Below are positions 1 through 11,130 of a stretch of 39,181 nt of DNA, in pieces. Each line of letters opens with the position of its first letter. Position 1 is the first letter of the stretch. The stretch lies in contig JACQCH010000061.1 of NCBI GenBank assembly GCA_016201735.1, positions 1 through 39,181 on the forward strand. Reading direction: 5' to 3'. The DNA is from Candidatus Omnitrophota bacterium. GTDB lineage: Bacteria; Omnitrophota; Gorgyraeia; 1-14-0-20-64-10. Both the position numbers and the translations under genes were made by a program. The notes under the pieces are model-generated. The model searched no databases. It saw only the letters and a list, made by a program, of their open reading frames with translations, and was not told where the DNA came from.

Positions 1-1556
1 AGGTTTTCTACCAGCTTCTCCTTCGGAGGCACCGCAAGGGAACCTTCGAGATTGGAACAGAGGACCCCCACCTGAACCACCCCGATGTGCAGGACGTTCC
101 CCATCTCGTGGCCTATGGCGGAGAGCTGCTCATCGGCGGCCTCCAGTTTGCCCAGGTTCACACCTTTTCGATGGAAGCGGGCATTCTGAATGGCGATGGC
201 CACCTGATGGGCCAGAGAGCTAAAGGTAGAAAGGTCGTCTTGTGTGAACATCTGGCCGGAGATCTTCTGACCCAAGACCATGAATCCGATCAAACGGGTC
301 TTTAGAAAGGATGGAATCACCACCGCAGCTTTCATGTAACTCAAACGGTCACTCAGCTTGGCAAAGCGCCTGTCGTGGCCCTCCTGAATGGAGCGCCTCA
401 GCTCCTCTGCCACCACCGGTCCCTCGGCAGCCCAAAGGTAATGAATCAAAGCATTGTCCGAATCAAAAGAATCTACAAGTTCCACCTTCTGCCCCCGAGA
501 GACCTTAAGTTCATACGGCTCTCCATCCCGCTCTTGGAGGTAGAGTACGGCAAAGGTAAGTTTGACGTGCCTGACGACGATGCCAACAATCCTCCTGAGC
601 AATTTCTGGAGGTCAAGGATCTTCAGCATATCCTCAGCGGCTGCCACGAGGAGCTGCTGATAACGGCGCTGTTCAGCTAGGAGGCGATTTTCTGCTCTCT
701 GTTGGACGTACTTATAGGATGCCAAACCAACCACTGCAAATATGGCCTCCAGCCCCATGGGGACAACCCACCAATTTGCTCCAAGATGAGAGGCCAAGAT
801 TGACTGGAGGAGTTTCCCCGCAAAAACAGGAAGGACCAGCAAGGGAATATAGACGACGGCAAACAATGCCATTCGGGTCATCACCACATTGATGTCCAAG
901 AGACGATACCGAAGGATGGCGTATGCTACGATGAATAAGAATAGAATCTCGAGGGTGAAGCCGAAGGGATAAAATTCAACTCCGTACTTTGGGATATAGT
1001 CAATTGCGCCCATCAGGGCGATAACATAGGCGATGAAAACGTATTGTAGTTGTAATTTTCTTGTGCGAGTATGCCCTCCTTTTATGATTTCTTTGGACAG
1101 CAGATAGAAACCTCTGCCAAACATGCCGAAGAAAATCACCAGATATATTGGATGCAATAATCCTGCTTTTGAATAGTATCCCCAGTAGTAACGCCAGGTT
1201 CCTGACAAGAAGTAGGGTGACACTAATGAGAAAGAGGCGATGAGTCCCATGGTCAAGTAAGCAAGGAGCACAAACCTTCGCTCTTTCTTGAGATCCAAGA
1301 AGCTTACTGAAAAGTGATAGAACGCCGGTGCTGTAAAACATGCGCCTGCGCAAGCAACCCTACAAAAGAACAGGGCTAGAGTAGCGTCCTGCGTGGAATA
1401 AACGATCGTGTACCCAAAAAGCCAAACAAAAACAGAGAGGCAAAAGAAGAAGAAACTTAAGTTATTTTGGGAATGTCTGTTTTTTGATAGGACGAAAAAA
1501 CCAATCAGAATGGAGAATATTGCCCCTATGAGGGGCGGGATAGAGTAAGGGGACAT
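1..1556 (-). CDS. 7TM-GAF sensor histidine kinase, C-terminus cut by window edge
   Basis: No stop codon occurs in this frame before the left edge, so the gene continues outside; about 518 codons are visible. Residues 1 to about 225 are very hydrophobic with roughly seven membrane segments, ending in YAILRYRLLDI, a hallmark of the histidine-kinase N-terminal 7TM family. A GAF-like domain follows (about 290-470, with AVVIPSFLKTRLIGFMVLG and ALAHQVAIAIQNAR-type helices). Then comes GHEMGNVLHI, which fits the H-box of a dimerisation domain with a phospho-accepting His. The ATP-binding domain must lie beyond the edge. The ATG start overlaps the end of the acyl-ACP-reductase-like gene by 31 bases, so the two are probably translationally coupled. 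The ligand is unknown. The kinase call is an inference from architecture because the catalytic domain is not visible. Confidence 0.8.
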   Translation of the reverse strand, partial: MSPYSIPPLIGAIFSILIGFFVLSKNRHSQNNLSFFFFCLSVFVWLFGYTIVYSTQDATLALFFCRVACAGACFTAPAFYHFSVSFLDLKKERRFVLLAYLTMGLIASFSLVSPYFLSGTWRYYWGYYSKAGLLHPIYLVIFFGMFGRGFYLLSKEIIKGGHTRTRKLQLQYVFIAYVIALMGAIDYIPKYGVEFYPFGFTLEILFLFIVAYAILRYRLLDINVVMTRMALFAVVYIPLLVLPVFAGKLLQSILASHLGANWWVVPMGLEAIFAVVGLASYKYVQQRAENRLLAEQRRYQQLLVAAAEDMLKILDLQKLLRRIVGIVVRHVKLTFAVLYLQERDGEPYELKVSRGQKVELVDSFDSDNALIHYLWAAEGPVVAEELRRSIQEGHDRRFAKLSDRLSYMKAAVVIPSFLKTRLIGFMVLGQKISGQMFTQDDLSTFSSLAHQVAIAIQNARFHRKGVNLGKLEAADEQLSAIGHEMGNVLHIGVVQVGVLCSNLEGSLAVPPKEKLVEN

Positions 1557-2647
1557 GGCGAATGGGTTGGCTGAGCTAAACGCGCTTCCGCCACGGCTTT
1601 TATCCGTTCCTTAGGCACAGTCTTCCCGAAACTTGTGAATTCGGCTAATTTGAAGCCGTGTTTCTTTGCAAGCTGCGCCATTTTTGCTACTTTTAAGATC
1701 GAAATGTTTCCGCCTATGGAGTACGAAACATAGAGTTCTTCTAAAGCTAGCATCATCGTTTCAGCCATACATGCGTATGCTAAACCTTTCTCAAGGCCAA
1801 AACAAAAGTGGAAGTCGACATTTCCGGGTGGCTTTACAACTCCTCCATCAATTACGAGAATATCGGTTTTCTTCTCAGCCTCGTCTTTTAGAATGTTATG
1901 AGGCAACGAAATGTCGCATACTACAGAACCAGGTTTAATATCGTCGATACTAACCAAAGCAGTCGGAGCGCTGGTGGCGATGAGGATCAGGTCTGCTTTA
2001 CTAACGGCGTTATTTATGGAATTCGTGCACGTCACGTTCGTGGATCCCGCCTCTCGAAGAGACCCGGCCAGTTTGTGCAACTTTTCTTCATTGCGGGCCA
2101 CAAGGATCAATTGACCAACGTCCTTTGCTAGAATTCTGGTGCAAATTTCCCCGATGCTTCCTGTGGCACCAATTACGGAAACGGATGCTTCTGAAATGTT
2201 AATGCCGACGGCGTTCAGCGCGGACAGAGCAGCTTCTATAGCAACTAGGATGGTATAGTTCGTGCCCGTAGTTACAGGAACATTGACAGCTTCAGCCAGT
2301 AAGACACCCCTTTTCCCGATCCATGCCGCATAAGCGCCTAATCCGATAATGCGGGCCCCAAGTTGCTGGGCCAGTCTTCCTGCTTCGATGAGTTTGGAAA
2401 TGGTGAAGTCGCTACGCATGTTGATGATCTGCTCAGGAATCATGGGCCAAAGAATCATGTCGCCTTTAATCTCTTTTCCCGTGAGGGATTCTATTCCTGT
2501 TACGGTTTCTCTTTTGACTGGGGGAAGCCATCGTAACGCTCGTTCTACAAATCTTCTGCGTTTTTGTTTGAGGCGGGGCTCTTCCAAAACCCAGTCGCCG
2601 AGGCTTTCTATATCGTGTGGATGAAAGATAAAGGCAAAATCACTCAT
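1526..2647 (-). CDS. Long-chain acyl-ACP reductase (AAR)-like protein
   Basis: This 373-residue protein resembles cyanobacterial acyl-[acyl-carrier-protein] reductase, which makes fatty aldehydes from acyl-ACP with NADPH. The N-terminal part has ESLTGKEIKGD and a MIPEQI stretch matching the AAR signature around ESxTG and FLPEML. A Rossmann motif GATGSIG lies at about 160-166, followed by LILVARNEEKL. Near the C-terminus, AYACMAETMMLALE aligns with the FACFAESM segment of AAR; Cys at about 293 corresponds to its acylated catalytic cysteine. The tail after residue 350 looks unconserved. The start codon directly follows the stop of the SRPBCC gene. No aldehyde decarbonylase is nearby, so the product may serve lipid or wax chemistry rather than alkane synthesis. 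Many relatives are annotated loosely as shikimate-dehydrogenase-like. Substrate is inferred. Confidence 0.72.
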   Translation of the reverse strand: MSDFAFIFHPHDIESLGDWVLEEPRLKQKRRRFVERALRWLPPVKRETVTGIESLTGKEIKGDMILWPMIPEQIINMRSDFTISKLIEAGRLAQQLGARIIGLGAYAAWIGKRGVLLAEAVNVPVTTGTNYTILVAIEAALSALNAVGINISEASVSVIGATGSIGEICTRILAKDVGQLILVARNEEKLHKLAGSLREAGSTNVTCTNSINNAVSKADLILIATSAPTALVSIDDIKPGSVVCDISLPHNILKDEAEKKTDILVIDGGVVKPPGNVDFHFCFGLEKGLAYACMAETMMLALEELYVSYSIGGNISILKVAKMAQLAKKHGFKLAEFTSFGKTVPKERIKAVAEARLAQPTHSPCPLTLSRPS

Positions 2648-3082
2648 TTATTTTCTTTGGAGTTCTCTTCGTATAGCCCAAAGCATACCCTTGAGGCTTC
2701 TGACAGCTAGTTTTTCTAGTGTGGAACCTACAAAACGCTCTAACCCAGGCACGCCCCACTTAAACTCTGCGTGCAGTTCGACTCGTGTGGTGCCACTCTC
2801 ATTTTCTTCCAACGTCCAGATCCCCTCGTATCTTTCATAATCACCCTCGATCATGCGAAAATGGACTTTATCCCTATCGAGAATGTTTTCCTGCGTCCAT
2901 TCAATGGGGGTTCCATCAATATCTACCTTCCAGTTGCTGACGATTTTGTTTCCATCCGAGCTTCGTATTCTGACTTCTTTTACATCTTTCAGAAAAGAGG
3001 GGAACTTGTCTAACTGTTTTAAGGTTTGGTAAACGACACCTTTCTCTCTCCTGATGGTTGTCGCCACTCTTATGAAAGGCAT
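2648..3082 (-). CDS. SRPBCC (START-like, COQ10/cyclase-type) protein
   Basis: This 144-residue protein begins MPFIRVATTIRR and continues with a helix and DKFPSFLKDVKEVRI, the usual opening of the polyketide-cyclase/COQ10 group of SRPBCC folds. A run of beta strands (WKVDIDGTPIEWTQE, YEGIWTLEE, TRVELHAEF) and a long C-terminal helix follow. Such proteins bind hydrophobic ligands in a deep cavity; some are lipid or quinone chaperones. It sits immediately before the acyl-ACP-reductase-like gene (TAA then ATG with no gap), which suggests that it handles the substrate or product of that enzyme. A strong AAGGAGG lies 21 bases before the ATG, too far for normal use. The upstream HTH frame overlaps the start by 13 bases, so re-initiation is plausible. 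Confidence 0.78.
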   Translation of the reverse strand: MPFIRVATTIRREKGVVYQTLKQLDKFPSFLKDVKEVRIRSSDGNKIVSNWKVDIDGTPIEWTQENILDRDKVHFRMIEGDYERYEGIWTLEENESGTTRVELHAEFKWGVPGLERFVGSTLEKLAVRSLKGMLWAIRRELQRK

Positions 3083-3402
3083 TTTGCACCATCATGCTGT
3101 CGGCCTCCTTCCCGCCCGCTGAAAGCAAGAAGGCCGGCTTCTCGCCGACCTTTTGTCCTCTGCTTACCTTGTCTGACCGCAACCCCATGAAGGGGCTTTT
3201 TTATCTGGCGTATTGACGTATTCTCTGAGAGCTTGCTAAGGAAGTAGTCCACCTTTTGGATGGTGCTTCGATTCCTAGGTGGAATCCCCATCTTGATCCA
3301 GCGGTAGAGGGACATGAAGCTGACATCCACCAGCCGGGCCAGCCGCTCGTAGCTGAGGTGTTCCCGATCCTTAAACCGCCTGAGCCGTTCGATCCGATCC
3401 AC
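3070..3402 (-). CDS. Small helix-turn-helix protein, possibly leaderless
   Basis: The frame starts with GTG and has no in-frame stop for 110 codons. Residues 14-40 (HLSYERLARLVDVSFMSLYR) read as a helix-turn-helix of the XRE or MerR-like type, followed by a short helix to about residue 60. The second half (basic, rich in Gly and Arg) does not look like a folded domain and its DNA contains two hairpins, so the true protein may be only about 65-75 residues or depend on a frameshift. A good promoter lies directly upstream and would begin the transcript within a few bases of the start codon, with no ribosome-binding site visible. It is the first gene of the SRPBCC-AAR-kinase cluster and may regulate it. 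Confidence 0.55.
   Translation of the reverse strand: MDRIERLRRFKDREHLSYERLARLVDVSFMSLYRWIKMGIPPRNRSTIQKVDYFLSKLSENTSIRQIKKPLHGVAVRQGKQRTKGRREAGLLAFSGREGGRQHDGAKCLS
3130..3152 (-). terminator. Hairpin inside the HTH 3' region (possible attenuator)
   Basis: AAGGCCGGC and GCCGACCTT form a nine-pair stem with one mismatch and a five-base loop. In the transcribed direction it is followed by only a weak U-rich stretch. A second stem (CCCC/GGGG near 3184-3196) with six T on the plus strand lies close by. Their position in the low-complexity tail of the HTH frame suggests regulation between the regulator and the downstream genes, but no clean terminator is present. Confidence 0.3.
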
Positions 3403-6118: not shown

Positions 6119-7072
6119 CGTACATCCTTCTCCAAACCCCACCAGTGCCGCGCCGATCAAGCCGGCCGAGGAACCCAATTGGGCCGGCACGATCGACACC
6201 TTGCCGGGCCCCCGCATGGCCCGCTCCCGGACCGTCCGGCGCATCGGCTCAAACAGCCATCGGCCCGCTTTGGAAATCCCTCCTCCGATCACAATCCTTT
6301 CCGGATTCAAAAGATTGACGACCCCCGTCAGGACCAGCCCGATTTGCGTTCCGACCCGGCTCCAGGTTTCCCGTGCCAACCGGTCTCCCAGCCGGCAGGC
6401 CTCGTCGATCATCGGCGGGATGATCTTCGCCGGGTTACCGCCGGCCAACTCCAGAATCCGGCTCTTTTCCCCGGCCCTCAAACGGCGGCGCACCCAAGCG
6501 AGAATCTCCCGGTTGCCCACCGTCCGCTCAAGACACGCGATCCCACCGCAAGAACAGGGAGACCCTTTTTCACCCAAAGGCATGTGCCCCACCTCACCGG
6601 CCGAACCGTTCCATCCCCGGTAGAGGCGGCCGTTGATAATCAGCCCTCCCCCGACCCCGGTTCCCAGGGTCAGGCAAACCAGGTTCGACACTCCTTGGCC
6701 CGCCCCGAACTTCCATTCGGCAAGAGTCATCGCGTTGACGTCGTTCTCCACCTCCACCGGAAGCCGCAGACGTCTCTTCAGATTCCCTTTCAGGGGAACG
6801 TTCTTCCAATTCACAAGGTTCGCGCAGGAGAGAACGATCCCCTGGGGAACCTTCACCAATCCCGGAATCCCAACACCCACCCCGGCCACCGGCTCCTTCG
6901 ACCGCCGAATCAGGAGATGTACCGCGTTGACCATCGCTTGATCAAGGGCTTTCGGGGTAAGGGAGCCAGCGGTCGGGAAAGAGCTCTGGAACAGGACCCG
7001 CCTCCCCTGGACGAGACCGAACTTGACGTTGGTCCCACCCACATCGATCCCGATCCCCACCCTTTCTCTCAT
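6098..7072 (-). CDS. ROK-family sugar kinase (glucokinase-like)
   Basis: This 324-residue cytoplasmic kinase phosphorylates a hexose with ATP. It begins GIGIDVGGTNVKFGLV (phosphate-1 motif), has VENDVNAMTLAEW with the catalytic-base Asp, LTLGTGVGGGLI (phosphate-2 motif), EVGHMPLG, and the ROK zinc signature CSCGGIACLE with its Cys ligands, followed by IVIGGGIS near the end (adenosine motif). Glucokinase is the most common activity for this group, but N-acetyl sugars cannot be excluded. The start overlaps the stop of the upstream GGDEF gene by four bases. The last dozen residues (GCTSFRRTK) come from a palindromic repeat shared with the lptD start, so the native C-terminus has probably been replaced. 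Confidence 0.88.
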   Translation of the reverse strand: MRERVGIGIDVGGTNVKFGLVQGRRVLFQSSFPTAGSLTPKALDQAMVNAVHLLIRRSKEPVAGVGVGIPGLVKVPQGIVLSCANLVNWKNVPLKGNLKRRLRLPVEVENDVNAMTLAEWKFGAGQGVSNLVCLTLGTGVGGGLIINGRLYRGWNGSAGEVGHMPLGEKGSPCSCGGIACLERTVGNREILAWVRRRLRAGEKSRILELAGGNPAKIIPPMIDEACRLGDRLARETWSRVGTQIGLVLTGVVNLLNPERIVIGGGISKAGRWLFEPMRRTVRERAMRGPGKVSIVPAQLGSSAGLIGAALVGFGEGCTSFRRTK

Positions 7073-8289
7073 TCCGCCGTCTTCCCTCCCCCCTTGGGCA
7101 CTGTCCGGTTTCGGCCCCGGGCCTTGGCCTCATACATCGCTTCATCGGCCTGTTCAACCAGGAGATCCGCCGACGAGGCATCCCCCGGGTAGAGGGCGAC
7201 CCCAATGGAAACGGTGATCTCCACTCTCTCATCGTAGGCCGAAATCGGAGTGCGCCCGACCACTTCCCGGATCCGATCCGCGATTTGAATTCCCAAGACC
7301 CGCCCCGCTTCGGGAAGGACCACGCCAAACTCTTCACCCCCGTAGCGGCCCACCAAATCCACTTCACGCACGGAGGCCTGAACCCGCCGGGCCACCTCCC
7401 TGAGCACAAGATCCCCCACGAGATGCCCATACGTGTCGTTGACCTGTTTGAAGTGGTCCAGATCCACCATCAGGAAAGCCAGGTGGGTGCCGCGGCGGGA
7501 AGCCCGGGCGACCTCCTCCTCCAACCGCTCACGGAAATACCGGCGGACCAAGAGACCGGTCAATCCGTCGTGGATGGCCGATTCCTGGACCTGGCGGTAT
7601 AAGGAAACCCGCTTTAACCCTAAGGCCAGCTGACCAATCACAATCCCCCCTCTTTCCCAGGACTCCATCCCCCCATTTCCGGCAGGCAGAGAGGAAATGA
7701 GCGATTCGATCGAAACCTCCCCCTGTTCGACTTGAGACCGGATCTTTTGGAGAACATCCGAACGCACCTGCTCACTCACTCGGGGCAAGGCCTTGATCAA
7801 CGCCTCTTCGGTGATCCTCAGCGCCTGATCCTCCTCCAGGGTCGCCAGGAACTGTTTTGAAAGGCCGTAGAGATCGCTGATCCCGGAGATTGCTTCTTCC
7901 TGGGAACGAAGGGTGATTTGTCGATCCTTGAACTCCTTTTGAATATGCCGAAGCCGCTCCTCGAGAGATTGAAGACGTTCCTGAGAACCTCTGGCCGTCT
8001 CCTGCAGCTGCCCGGCCTTTCTCCAGAGAAGAAACGGCAGGAGGCAAAACAGGGTCAAAGGCCCCGCAATCCACCCCACGGCAATCTGACCCGCCGCCGC
8101 CAGACCGACGCAAACCAGCGCCGATAAAAACCCGATCCCGAAAGCCCCTCGGGGTCCCAAAAAGAAACCGGCGCCGACCAGAGGCAGGCTCATCCCGCTC
8201 ACCCAAGGCACCGCCTGCTGCGGCATCCACAGCGTCCCTAGAAGAAGCAGAATCCACCCGCCGACGATTGTAAATTTCAGGAAGAACAT
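7069..8289 (-). CDS. Membrane diguanylate cyclase (GGDEF)
   Basis: This 406-residue protein makes cyclic di-GMP from GTP. Residues 1 to about 95 hold three or four membrane segments, then a charged coiled coil (about 95-145) and a helical sensor-like stretch lead to a GGDEF domain over the last 170 residues. Motifs seen are DGLTGLLVRRYF, MVDLDHFKQVNDTYGH, RYGGEEFGVVLP and the end motif ADEAMYEAKARGRNR. The active site GGEEF is intact and REVD five residues before it gives a canonical RxxD inhibitory site, so product inhibition is expected. It overlaps the upstream GAF-GGDEF gene by 13 bases and the downstream ROK kinase by four, so the set is likely one operon. Confidence 0.9.
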   Translation of the reverse strand: MFFLKFTIVGGWILLLLGTLWMPQQAVPWVSGMSLPLVGAGFFLGPRGAFGIGFLSALVCVGLAAAGQIAVGWIAGPLTLFCLLPFLLWRKAGQLQETARGSQERLQSLEERLRHIQKEFKDRQITLRSQEEAISGISDLYGLSKQFLATLEEDQALRITEEALIKALPRVSEQVRSDVLQKIRSQVEQGEVSIESLISSLPAGNGGMESWERGGIVIGQLALGLKRVSLYRQVQESAIHDGLTGLLVRRYFRERLEEEVARASRRGTHLAFLMVDLDHFKQVNDTYGHLVGDLVLREVARRVQASVREVDLVGRYGGEEFGVVLPEAGRVLGIQIADRIREVVGRTPISAYDERVEITVSIGVALYPGDASSADLLVEQADEAMYEAKARGRNRTVPKGGGKTAE

Positions 8290-9689
8290 ACTTGATTGCG
8301 GCCCCTCATCTTCGCCCGGTACAGGCGGTCATCGGCGCTCTTGAGCAGGGCCTCCGGCGACTCCCCATCCTGCGGAAAAACCGCCACGCCGATGGAAACG
8401 GTGGTCTGCGTGAGGGAGCGCCGAAGCTCCACCTGCGTCCCCTCCACTCGGGAACGGATCTCTTCCGCCCGCCGGACGGCCTCTTGAAAACCGACCCCCG
8501 GCAGCAGGAATACAAACTCCTCTCCTCCGAACCGGCCGGCCAATTCTCCCAGCCGCTGCATCTGGCGAAGCAACCCTGCCATCTGTTTCAACAACTTATC
8601 CCCCGCCGAATGCCCGAAGGTGTCATTGTAACCCTTGAATCGATCGATGTCGATCAACAGAAGAGCGATCGGAACCTGGAGAACCTTGGAACGGGCGATC
8701 TCCTCCGCCGTTCTTTTCTCAAAGTGTCTTCGCACCGCCAGTCCCGTCAAATCATCGGTGATCGCCAACTCCACCATCCGCTGATAGAGCTGGCTGTTTT
8801 CAATCCCCAGGGAAGCCAAGTCCCCCACAATCCTCACCAGCCGCAGATCCTCCAGCCCCAGCCCATGAGCTTGGGAGGCCTCGACCCGGAGCACTCCCAG
8901 GAGCCGTTCCTCGCTGAACAAAGGAACCGCCAACAAGCTGCCCAAGGGACGCCCGATTTCCCTAGAGGTCTCCGGGGGGAAGCGAAAATCAGTGCGCGGA
9001 TCCTCCACCAACAGCGGCTGGGCCTGCCGCATCACCCACAGATCAAACGGATCCCCCATCTTTGCCTTGACGGTCACGGAACCTGACCGCCGCCAGACGG
9101 ATTTGAGTTCAAGTGTCAAGGTGTCTCGATTCACCAGATACAGAAGGACCAGATCCCCGCTTGCCGCCAATTGGCCCGTCGCCTCCACAATGTTCTGGAC
9201 CAGCTCCTCCAGGGAGAAACTGGCGCTGAAGGCATTGGCAATTTGGCGCAGCTGCTGGTACCGCTTTAACCGATCCTGAAGACCCGCCAGGGATTCCTTC
9301 AAGCGGGCCCACTGATCCTCAAGAGTATTCCATTCTTCCTCCGTCCTGTCCGCCTTAAGATCCGCTTCCCGGAGTTTTGCCATCCATTCCGACAGCCCCC
9401 GGCGGGTCAACAATCCCAGCAGGAGAAACTCCATCGGCAGCCAGAGCAGATGAAACTCCCGGTAGGCCAGGGCCGCCACGGCCACCAGCAGGCCCGACCC
9501 GCAGACAGCGGCAACCGCCCAGAACGGGCCCACCCAGAGGAAACCGACGAAGATCAGGATAAAAAACAGGTGAGCCGCCCAGGCAAGACGGACCGGCGAA
9601 ACAGAAGCCGCGGATGAAATCAGCGGAGAGGAGAGAAGCAGGAAGAGAGAAACCGACAGTAAACCGACAGCCCAGGCGGCCCGGATCAT
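8277..9689 (-). CDS. GAF-GGDEF membrane diguanylate cyclase with degenerate I-site
   Basis: The open frame reaches 9881, but that would overlap the end of ugpC by 170 bases with a nonsense peptide. The ATG at 9689, preceded by AAGGA and 22 bases after the ugpC stop, starts a sensible 470-residue protein beginning with membrane segments (to about residue 100). A coiled coil (about 105-150), a GAF domain (about 150-310, with GSLLAVPLFSEERLLGVLRV) and a GGDEF domain (about 310-470) follow. DDLTGLAVRRHF, LIDIDRFKGYNDTFGH and RFGGEEFVFLLP indicate an active cyclase. The RxxD position reads RLGE, so feedback inhibition is probably lost. The SD-to-ATG spacing is short. Signals sensed by the GAF domain are unknown. 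Confidence 0.88.
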   Translation of the reverse strand: MIRAAWAVGLLSVSLFLLLSSPLISSAASVSPVRLAWAAHLFFILIFVGFLWVGPFWAVAAVCGSGLLVAVAALAYREFHLLWLPMEFLLLGLLTRRGLSEWMAKLREADLKADRTEEEWNTLEDQWARLKESLAGLQDRLKRYQQLRQIANAFSASFSLEELVQNIVEATGQLAASGDLVLLYLVNRDTLTLELKSVWRRSGSVTVKAKMGDPFDLWVMRQAQPLLVEDPRTDFRFPPETSREIGRPLGSLLAVPLFSEERLLGVLRVEASQAHGLGLEDLRLVRIVGDLASLGIENSQLYQRMVELAITDDLTGLAVRRHFEKRTAEEIARSKVLQVPIALLLIDIDRFKGYNDTFGHSAGDKLLKQMAGLLRQMQRLGELAGRFGGEEFVFLLPGVGFQEAVRRAEEIRSRVEGTQVELRRSLTQTTVSIGVAVFPQDGESPEALLKSADDRLYRAKMRGRNQVCSS

Positions 9690-9711
9690 ATCCTTGGAGT
9701 GGGCCTTAGGA

Positions 9712-10818
9712 TTAAGCGACAGCCACCTCCGTGACGGGATCAAAGAAATGCACCTTGGACATATCGAAAACCAGATCGATGTCCTGGCGGACCTTCGGGC
9801 GATCATGCCCTCCGACCCGGGCGACCAGTGTGTGGGAACCCAACAAGAGATGCAGGTACACTTCCGATCCCATCGGCTCAACCACCTCGACCGTCGCCGT
9901 CACGGTATTCTCGGGCGGCGCGTACTGGACAAACAGCTTATCGTAAATGTGTTCCGGGCGGATGCCAAAGAGGATCTTCTTCCCCTCGTACGGGAGAACC
10001 CGAGGGAGCGTCTCGTCCGTCACCTTCACCCGGAAGGTCCCCTCGTCAAAATAGGCCCGGCCGTTGCGCCGGAGGATCCGGCCGGGGATAAAATTCATCG
10101 GGGGAGATCCGACGAAACCGGCGACGAAACGGTTCACCGGATGGTCGTAGACAGTCGCGGGGTCCGCCACCTGCTGAATGATCCCCTGGTGCATCACGGC
10201 GATCCGGTTGCCCAAGGTCATCGCCTCCATCTGATCGTGGGTGACGTAAATCATCGTCGATTGGAGCCGCAAGTGGAGTTTGTTCAGTTCCGTCCGCATC
10301 TGGACCCGCATCTTAGCGTCCAAGTTCGAAAGGGGCTCGTCAAAGAGGAAGACGATCGGCTTCCGGACGATCGCCCTTCCTAAGGCCACCCGCTGACGCT
10401 CTCCGCCGGAGAGCTCCTTGGGCTTGCGGTTCAGGAGCCGGGAGATCCCCAGAATCTCCGCCGCCTCTTTGACCCGGTTCGTGATCTCCCACTTCGGATA
10501 CCCCCGGAGGGAAAGCCCGAAGGCCATGTTTTCAAAGACCGTCATGTGTGGGTACAGGGCGTAGCTCTGAAAGACCATGGCGATGTCCCGATCCTTGGGC
10601 GGCACTTCATTGACCATTCGGTCGCCGATGAAGATCTTCCCGGAGGTCACCTCCTCCAAGCCGGCCACCATCCGAAGGGTGGTGGACTTGCCGCACCCGG
10701 AAGGGCCCACCAGGACGACGAACTCCTTGGATTCCACATCCAGGCTCACCCGGTCCACCGCCTTGACCTCTCCAGGCTGGTAGATCTTGGACACTTCTTG
10801 AAGAGAAACTTGGGCCAT
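9712..10818 (-). CDS. ugpC: Sugar/glycerol-phosphate ABC importer ATPase (UgpC/MalK/MsmX type)
   Basis: This 368-residue ATPase has Walker A GPSGCGKST (38-46), Q-loop VFQSYALYPHMT, signature LSGGERQRVALGRA, Walker B VFLFDEPLSNLDAKMR and switch His in THDQMEAM. After about residue 235 there is the TOBE/MalK regulatory domain (FGIRPEH, GSEVYLHL). This identifies the CUT1-type group that energises sugar or glycerol-3-phosphate importers at the inner membrane. No permease or binding protein is nearby, so it may be a shared ATPase serving several transporters. It follows a leader of about 300 bases after accD and is the first gene of a run with two GGDEF genes, a ROK kinase and lptD. The exact substrate cannot be read from the sequence. 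Confidence 0.88.
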   Translation of the reverse strand: MAQVSLQEVSKIYQPGEVKAVDRVSLDVESKEFVVLVGPSGCGKSTTLRMVAGLEEVTSGKIFIGDRMVNEVPPKDRDIAMVFQSYALYPHMTVFENMAFGLSLRGYPKWEITNRVKEAAEILGISRLLNRKPKELSGGERQRVALGRAIVRKPIVFLFDEPLSNLDAKMRVQMRTELNKLHLRLQSTMIYVTHDQMEAMTLGNRIAVMHQGIIQQVADPATVYDHPVNRFVAGFVGSPPMNFIPGRILRRNGRAYFDEGTFRVKVTDETLPRVLPYEGKKILFGIRPEHIYDKLFVQYAPPENTVTATVEVVEPMGSEVYLHLLLGSHTLVARVGGHDRPKVRQDIDLVFDMSKVHFFDPVTEVAVA

Positions 10819-11130
10819 TAATACAACCGCGCTAAATAATGTGACATCCTGGGCCGGCCACGGGGCCTGTCGTGGGGCAACCCCGCATCCGGCATCGGGC
10901 CTTGTCCGGATGAATTGTTCACAATGACCATGTCAGAGCATCGGGAGATGGCCGAATATAACAGGACTCTCCATGGAAAGTCGTTCATTTCAGCTTGGGT
11001 TTCCATTCCATAGGGCTTGAGCCTAAAACGTCGGCCCGGCTTTCGTCTGCGGGGCCGCCCCACGCCACCCGTGGCTTCACCGATCGTATCACATGAGTTA
11101 TCACGGTTGGCAACACCAGGTTATTATATC
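10819..11130 (-). promoter_or_regulatory. Promoter and long GC-rich leader between accD and ugpC
   Basis: A perfect -10 hexamer TATAAT (11128-11123 on the minus strand) begins just after the accD stop; no good -35 lies 17 bases before it. It would give a leader of about 300 nt before ugpC. The leader can form several GC-rich hairpins, for example GCCAC/GTGGC and GGGG/CCCC stems near 11040-11075 and GGGG-TTG-CCCC plus CCACG/CGTGG near 10848-10885. A second candidate, extended -10 TGTTATATT, lies at 10962-10954, and ATTGT/ACAAT near 10914-10925 could be an operator. I do not recognise a known riboswitch or RNA family and see no convincing ORF. Confidence 0.45.

Follow-up and report, generated by a model that had tools for sequence, protein, structure and literature searches.

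In the present study, an enzyme related to the acyl-ACP reductase (AAR) of cyanobacteria was found beside an SRPBCC protein and a 7TM-GAF histidine kinase in an Omnitrophota genome, and the same kind of kinase was found after several other enzymes that act on acyl thioesters or aldehydes. These enzyme-plus-kinase cassettes have the appearance of lipid-signalling circuits that form an as yet undescribed family. By analogy with the CqsA/CqsS system, the enzyme may turn fatty-acyl chains into a carbonyl compound or alcohol to which the 7TM sensor responds, a reading to which we give a probability of about 0.45.

The three genes lie on the minus strand of the window, which is the whole analysed stretch of 39,181 nucleotides. 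The SRPBCC/START-like ligand-binding protein (positions 2648-3082, 144 aa) is recognized by PF03364 (3e-16; 60.3 bits against a gathering score of 23.4) and matches TTHA0849 (PDB 2d4r, 4.6e-11). It is followed with zero gap by the AAR-like homologue of acyl-ACP and thioester reductases (1526-2647, 373 aa), whose start codon abuts the SRPBCC stop codon, and the kinase (3-1556) is readable for 518 aa before it is cut off at the contig end. The kinase shows HisKA_7TM (PF16927, 6.8e-17) and GAF_3 (2.4e-12), both above cut-off, and its full-length relatives carry the kinase core as HATPase_c, often with HisKA. The open reading frames and the Pfam, NCBIfam and PDB matches thus bear out the gene order given in the preliminary description. 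The words "fused by overlap" used there hold for the 31 nt shared by the kinase and AAR reading frames, and true fusion is found in relatives and not in the window.

The identity of the reductase was examined by profile, structure and phylogeny. In the NCBIfam search the best match was PigE (NF053554, 2.6e-59), followed by the long-chain acyl-ACP reductase model AcACP_reductase (TIGR04058, 3.3e-34), both below their equivalog cut-offs (201.4 against 850 and 118.7 against 449.7 bits, respectively). The PigE match is confined to positions 34-355 of the 837 in the profile, and the window enzyme lacks the fusion of reductase to class III transaminase by which PigE is defined. Among PDB entries, PigE (4ppm, 3.8e-29) also preceded cyanobacterial AAR (6jzq, 1.1e-23). 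The Rossmann motif is present, and in the 6jzq alignment Cys293 of the window falls on the AAR catalytic cysteine, which is reported as Cys294 (PMC8341465; title of 6jzz). Of 113 distinct AAR domains, 108 have this cysteine and all 113 have Glu296, which the window enzyme also has. The model of a fused SRPBCC-AAR homologue superposed on AAR 6jzu with Z 37.3 (rmsd 2.5, 323 aligned, 24% identity). Other dehydrogenase families, namely shikimate dehydrogenase, short-chain dehydrogenases and glutamyl-tRNA reductase, matched the Rossmann part only, and their matches were much weaker than those to PigE and AAR. The proposed AAR homology with a catalytic cysteine is upheld, with the amendment that the window protein falls in an SRPBCC-associated clade apart from cyanobacterial AAR and that the PigE reductase scores best. 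The N-terminal domain of PigE, homologous to the window enzyme, has been described as a thioester reductase (PMC8341465), and AAR domains outside cyanobacteria are already known from PigE and transaminase fusions (PMC8341465, PMC10829540). The predicted activity of the window enzyme is the reductive release of an acyl thioester to give an aldehyde, and the chemistry, judged from homology and catalytic residues, is probably the conversion of fatty-acid building blocks to fatty aldehyde.

Cyanobacterial-type alkane synthesis was ruled out, because the aldehyde-deformylating oxygenase (ADO, PF11266) was detected in none of 145 Omnitrophota genomes, the own genome counted in, under a search that did detect Synechococcus elongatus as positive control; the lack of a decarbonylase partner had been correctly noticed from the sequence. 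A viral origin was also rejected, as no relative was encoded on any of the 14 candidate stretches from viral contigs.

The SRPBCC-AAR pair recurs, SRPBCC being the N-terminal domain of the AAR polypeptide in 26 and an adjacent gene in 14 of the 113 distinct rows. A same-strand 7TM kinase follows within 6 genes in 36 of these 40 rows, as the immediate next gene in 25, and three of the four rows without a kinase have less than 700 bases of contig remaining. In AAR homologues without SRPBCC from the collection of named genomes, the kinase was found downstream in 1 of 60 (Fisher 1.6e-21). Duplicate loci (L080, L082, L083, L085, L088 and L090) were left out of the AAR tree and of the kinase-link and cysteine counts. 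The fused L140 was discarded, as its N-terminus is frame noise; it is still contained in the SRPBCC seeds and in the AAR tree, and the tree group counts include it. The observation that the cluster is AT-richer than its surroundings was confirmed for all three genes (GC 0.478 for AAR, 0.444 for SRPBCC and 0.494 for the kinase, against 0.561 for the whole window). Together with a 58% identical relative of identical gene order in a metagenome-assembled genome (MAG) labelled Clostridia (L079), this base composition suggests horizontal transfer as had been hinted, with misbinning of L079 as a possible source of the second sign.

The preliminary description had proposed a regulated fatty-aldehyde route, of which the kinase link stands; it overlooked that the kinase family also pairs with non-homologous enzymes. 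For the kinase family, present in 238 of 285 genomes, ten AAR-linked kinases served as the basis of a profile, and 87 related kinases that do not lie near known AAR genes were picked. Thioester-release or aldehyde enzymes of several unrelated folds stood before 35 of them and before 0 of 22 other kinases (Fisher 7e-5); this control set is small, 12 of the 22 sit right after a receiver, and the 8 others on their own give Fisher 0.018. Using profiles built in this analysis, the 35 enzymes were tagged as NAD_binding_4 (19), ALDH (5), alpha-oxoamine synthase (4), HMG-CoA reductase (3), AAR (2) and AAR with NAD_binding_4 (2). Pfam concurred with the NAD_binding_4, ALDH, alpha-oxoamine synthase and HMG-CoA reductase tags in 19, 6, 4 and 3 proteins of a scanned batch of 44. 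The aldehyde dehydrogenases may be consumers rather than makers of aldehyde. Other lipid genes preceded 15 more of the 87 kinases, two doubtful "FabG" tags (68 and 80 aa) being kept among them, and none of the 22 controls. Upstream of the remaining kinases, 18 had a methyltransferase only, 7 had something else and 12 had nothing readable.

The two parts of the kinase show different histories. In the own genome, a second operon on contig C47 consists of ACP, aldehyde dehydrogenase and 7TM-GAF kinase; its sensor is 38% identical to that of the window kinase, while the readable end of the core (window positions 1-200, no strand assigned) agrees at 99% of 200 bases of DNA and at 100% in protein. 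Over 67 kinases, a set that leaves out nine long-branch kinases and those without measurable GAF or core, enzyme type changed 16 times on the sensor tree and 28 times on the core tree (shuffled mean about 34.5), and host family changed 45 and 34 times, respectively. In 1000 bootstrap trees each, the ranges were 15-17 against 26-30 for enzyme type and 44-46 against 33-35 for host family, and with long branches retained (76 rows) there were 19 sensor against 32 core changes. Once the methyltransferase rows were left out (49 remained), the contrast narrowed to 14 changes on the sensor tree and 18 on the core tree (shuffled 19.9 and 20.0). Hence, the sensor goes with enzyme type and the core with host lineage, and much of the contrast comes from the methyltransferase class. 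Since varied enzymes stand before one kind of kinase, sensor and enzyme appear to have been exchanged together, the core staying with the host genome. Fine-scale co-evolution of AAR and sensor was not found among 27 AAR-linked rows, in which AAR distance followed the core (r 0.86) far more than the sensor (r 0.49; fast-evolving and possibly saturated), the opposite of what such co-evolution predicts.

In the circuit that we favour, the window would be one member of an Omnitrophota family of enzyme-plus-receptor cassettes. The SRPBCC-AAR protein pair would take an acyl chain from acyl carrier protein or CoA, bind it on Cys293 and, with NAD(P)H as reductant, convert it into a fatty aldehyde or close derivative, as homology and the conserved catalytic residues suggest. 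The likely role of the SRPBCC part is to hold the chain or to keep the aldehyde shielded. The lipophilic product would then be sensed by the neighbouring kinase through its 7TM domain. From the kinase, phosphate would go on to a single-domain receiver and at many loci also to c-di-GMP enzymes; of 108 kinases, 60 have a receiver as the first downstream gene and 28 have an HD-GYP gene within 4 genes. In related cassettes a thioester reductase, alpha-oxoamine synthase, HMG-CoA reductase, aldehyde dehydrogenase or possibly methyltransferase takes the place before a like kinase, and the whole would serve as a quorum-sensing or self-sensing lipid circuit. More tentatively, and with rather less confidence, the Omnitrophota may possess a modular chemical language, in which at least five kinds of acyl off-loading or reducing enzymes (AAR, thioester reductase, alpha-oxoamine synthase, HMG-CoA reductase, aldehyde dehydrogenase) and their cognate 7TM sensors recombine onto a genome-shared core, so that new lipid signals arise by swapping enzyme and sensor with the output kept. 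Compared with GPCR bundles, the sensor gave a best Foldseek E of 9.2e-4 (TM 0.46) and VIA Z 17.0 (rmsd 3.5, 219 aligned), where helical bundles can score about 13-14 by arrangement alone.

Known systems offer partial parallels. In the alpha-hydroxyketone quorum-sensing systems CqsA/CqsS and LqsA/LqsS, the gene of a synthase using acyl thioesters adjoins that of a membrane histidine kinase (PMC3285556). The window shares this arrangement, and in L051, L170, L225, L226 and L233 alpha-oxoamine synthases themselves are upstream of the 7TM-GAF kinase; however, the window enzyme is AAR-like and its sensor 7TM-GAF. On the alpha-oxoamine synthases of the cassettes, the autoinducer-synthase model NF005526 stayed below cut-off and was outscored by serine palmitoyltransferase models. 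The methyltransferase-kinase class resembles in gene arrangement PhcB/PhcS/PhcR of 3-OH MAME signalling, where a methyltransferase gene occurs with kinase and receiver (PMC6637872). A relationship to PhcB was not shown, as the plasmid search returned distant methyltransferases only (51 records, all below 60% identity), and the NCBIfam matches of the cassette methyltransferases were weak (BioC and others). With cyanobacterial AAR the window enzyme shares fold, Rossmann motif and catalytic cysteine, but it has an SRPBCC partner and a kinase in genomes without ADO. It is closest in family to the reductase-transaminase fusions PigE, TamH and KecF, but its cassette has SRPBCC and kinase in place of an aminotransferase.

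The main rival to the signalling circuit is that the kinase regulates a lipid-making operon, whose product would be a membrane or envelope precursor (a fatty aldehyde or alcohol destined for ether lipids, or acyl chains that are modified or ladderane-like), the 7TM domain reading membrane state rather than the product as a signal; we regard this as possible, although doubtful. Some cassettes, with ketosynthase, FabG, ACP and flavoprotein, look like biosynthetic clusters; these parts and the radical SAM enzymes of some cassettes exceed the needs of a simple signal synthase, which counts against the signal reading. In some sister cassettes, the ketosynthase, ACP and flavoprotein are presumably of the "ladderane" type. 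Ladderane-type clusters have been described in MAGs of Omnitrophota (PMC9902471), another study reports homologues of the ether-lipid gene elbD in 93 of its 267 Omnitrophota MAGs (PMC11868695), and the close tracking of the core by AAR distance fits this explanation too. The kinase pairing and release enzymes, however, are unmentioned in the consulted part of PMC9902471, with "histidine kinase" absent from its main text. A lipid operon would also not easily explain why one kinase family serves unrelated release enzymes and why the sensor, not the core, tracks enzyme type, nor the cassettes in which nothing but one enzyme separates a small HTH gene from the kinase (L161, L169).

Reductive chain release might instead yield secondary metabolites such as pigments, alkaloids or antimicrobials under control of the kinase. 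PigE makes a prodigiosin precursor, class III aminotransferases follow AAR in L041, L059, L071 and L077, and AAR-type release domains serve other clusters (the fused homologue matched the carmabin TAD 9e4s with Z 35.0). We consider this improbable, because many cassettes consist of SRPBCC-AAR and kinase with nothing more and no exporter recurs nearby, with the exception of FadL beside some of them and of RND genes at four loci. That the pattern merely reflects the abundance of Omnitrophota kinases and vertical inheritance of one ancestral operon is very unlikely: the wide occurrence of the kinase family and the match of AAR to core distances agree with it, but the enzymes are non-homologous and missing upstream of the other kinases, and sensor and core histories diverge.

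The literature search found no paper combining "acyl-ACP reductase" with "SRPBCC" or with "Omnitrophota", and titles and opening lines of abstracts in the wider literature described no enzyme-kinase lipid circuits of this kind. The main text of an Omnitrophota survey (PMC10066038) does not contain "acyl", "quorum", "two-component" or "c-di-GMP". If the signalling circuit is true, a large phylum, uncultured and made up mostly of ultra-small cells, would have self-made lipid signals and receptors readable from gene order, its repertoire would diversify by exchange of enzyme and sensor on a constant kinase, and AAR-type reductases would gain a natural role beyond hydrocarbon and alkaloid synthesis. 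Each cassette would then offer a ready enzyme-receptor pair testable in E. coli.

The cassette of the window is preceded by a small open reading frame (3070-3402, minus strand, 110 aa), a candidate local regulator with weak HTH matches below the Pfam cut-offs (HTH_23, 0.0073). HTH17-tagged small reading frames recur upstream of related cassettes, with PF12728 in one recurrent example.

In the window, which is the beginning of contig C7 of a 1.81 Mb genome, the gene of a START-like ligand-binding (SRPBCC) protein (3082-2648, - strand) is followed with zero gap by that of the acyl-ACP reductase (AAR)-like enzyme (2647-1526, -), and the latter overlaps by 31 nt a 7TM-GAF kinase gene (1556-3, -) that reaches the contig end. 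The GC content of these three genes is lower than that of the window. The ends of three contigs of this genome, C7 (window 1-200), C47 and C67, converge on a common kinase core; this sharing is probably the reason for the window contig beginning at that point.

The top NCBIfam matches of the window enzyme were the PigE reductase part (2.6e-59) and AAR (3.3e-34), neither of which reached its cut-off, and in the PDB it matched PigE (4ppm) and AAR (6jzq), its Cys293 aligning with the catalytic Cys of AAR. Since thioester reduction has been reported for the N-terminal domain of PigE (PMC8341465), aldehyde formation by the window enzyme may reasonably be predicted from homology. Among 113 distinct AAR domains sampled, 108 retain Cys293. 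It is absent from one fused L057 protein and from four extra AAR copies beside another AAR gene (L039:8059-9036, L051:7579-8580, L057:5325-6353 and L069:6735-7853), which are perhaps non-catalytic partners. In four other loci (L041, L059, L071, L077), a class III aminotransferase lies directly 3' of the AAR gene, with a GNAT-like protein next in three; these are possible fatty-amine variants.

The same 113 domains comprised 26 fused behind SRPBCC in one protein, 14 preceded by a separate SRPBCC gene and 73 with neither; one spurious fusion (L140) was entered among the last and left out of the kinase-pairing count. For the fused homologue in L083, the structure model (mean pLDDT 90.6) matched AAR 6jzu in its C-terminal part (Z 37.3), and START-like TTHA0849 (Z 22.2) and the aromatase/cyclase ZhuI (Z 20.9) in its N-terminal part. 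In the AAR tree, the 20-row clade of the window (SH-aLRT 99) mixes 13 adjacent, 5 fused and 2 SRPBCC-free forms, a separate group holds 21 Omnitrophota rows, every one fused, and another group of 60 rows, mostly from Firmicutes, Chloroflexi and Armatimonadota, is without SRPBCC except for the spurious L140.

Where SRPBCC was fused or adjacent (40 rows), the six genes downstream included a same-strand 7TM kinase in 36 rows, and in 25 the kinase was the very next gene. Three of the misses (L048, L049, L064) have 650, 397 and 106 bases of contig remaining, and L058 is the sole real one. These 40 rows come from Omnitrophota, apart from L079 (labelled Bacillota) and L086 (labelled Elusimicrobiota). 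Among AAR rows without SRPBCC, the kinase was present downstream in 11/12 from Omnitrophota loci and in 1/60 (L081) from the named collection (80 loci, the best 80 of 566 relatives). In the latter loci, dusB and greA-lysS flank many stand-alone AAR genes. Such a housekeeping cluster holds a Cys-bearing stand-alone AAR homologue in many Clostridia and relatives (many of L091-L157, e.g. L106:10001-11095).

With a profile built from ten AAR-linked kinases, relatives were detected in 238 of 285 Omnitrophota genomes. We sampled 80 loci around kinases among the matches listed (most, not all, of these), nearly all without a previously known AAR neighbour, and classed up to six upstream genes on the same strand with gaps of at most 350 bases. 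For the 87 kinases examined, the upstream genes included an acyl-release or aldehyde enzyme in 35 cases and other lipid genes in 15 more; 18 kinases had only a methyltransferase there, 7 had other genes and 12 had nothing readable. None of 22 control kinases (20 loci, picked via HATPase_c) had an upstream release enzyme, lipid gene or methyltransferase; they stood directly after a receiver (12/22), after other genes (8/22) or after nothing readable (2/22). Among 44 proteins checked with Pfam, 19 were NAD_binding_4 proteins, 6 were aldehyde dehydrogenases, 4 were of the alpha-oxoamine type and 3 were HMG-CoA reductases. The NAD_binding_4 kind is a thioester reductase by NCBIfam (TIGR01746, 3.2e-55; one example scanned), and the PLP kind falls into the serine palmitoyltransferase/BioF family, the alpha-hydroxyketone autoinducer synthase model scoring weaker. 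In L170, a methyltransferase-alpha-oxoamine synthase fusion (8819-10843) occupies the slot directly 5' of the kinase.

We tentatively propose, with a probability of roughly 0.45, that the cassette enzyme makes a product which the 7TM sensor of the neighbouring kinase would read. This fits because non-homologous enzymes of like chemistry precede one kinase family, and because sensor and enzyme class move together. The arrangement would be analogous to CqsA/CqsS, where a sensor kinase reads the enzyme product; the cqsA and cqsS genes are usually adjacent too (PMC3285556). It is also possible that the kinase instead governs lipid or metabolite synthesis, under which gene linkage is likewise expected.

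In careful trees of 67 kinases of known partner class, enzyme class changed 16 times on the sensor tree versus 28 on the core tree (shuffled mean about 34.5), and host family 45 versus 34 times; a quick GAF tree gave 26 and 33, respectively. The second such kinase of the window's genome, on C47 behind ACP and aldehyde dehydrogenase genes, shares 38% sensor identity with that of the window, whereas the readable core end is identical in protein and 99% in DNA (200 bases). The core runs on in C67 (141 bases common with C47), where an ACP gene and a receiver gene follow; these may be part of the window operon, of that on C47 or of both. Some other within-genome pairs follow the same trend, with sensor, GAF and core identities of 26, 67 and 68% in one pair of genome G244 and 20, 97 and 41% in one of G279; the medians of 22 complete pairs were only 29, 28 and 34%. 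The contrast is weakened by removal of the methyltransferase rows (14 sensor and 18 core changes; shuffled 19.9 and 20.0) and by AAR distances, which correlate more with the core (r 0.86) than with the sensor (r 0.49).

The window sensor (residues 1-222; 1556-891, -) was predicted as a helical bundle (mean pLDDT 84.0) with a beta hairpin between the fourth and fifth long helices, and the top PDB matches of this model were GPCRs, weakly (TM 0.46; Z 17.0).

A receiver was the first gene 3' of the kinase in 60/108 cases, and an HD-GYP protein lay within four genes in 28/108. A likely output is c-di-GMP, because the L040 cassette has receiver, receiver-GAF-GGDEF and GAF-HD-GYP proteins in a row. 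Two overlapping GGDEF (diguanylate cyclase) genes (7069-8289 and 8277-9881, -) lie about 4 kb from the window cassette. Operons of receiver, methyltransferase (~342 residues) and 7TM-GAF kinase (L061, L065, L070, L160, L199, L200, L210, L220 and others) resemble PhcB/PhcS/PhcR in layout. Two proteins from loci of this kind (L164, L177) carry PilZ domains.
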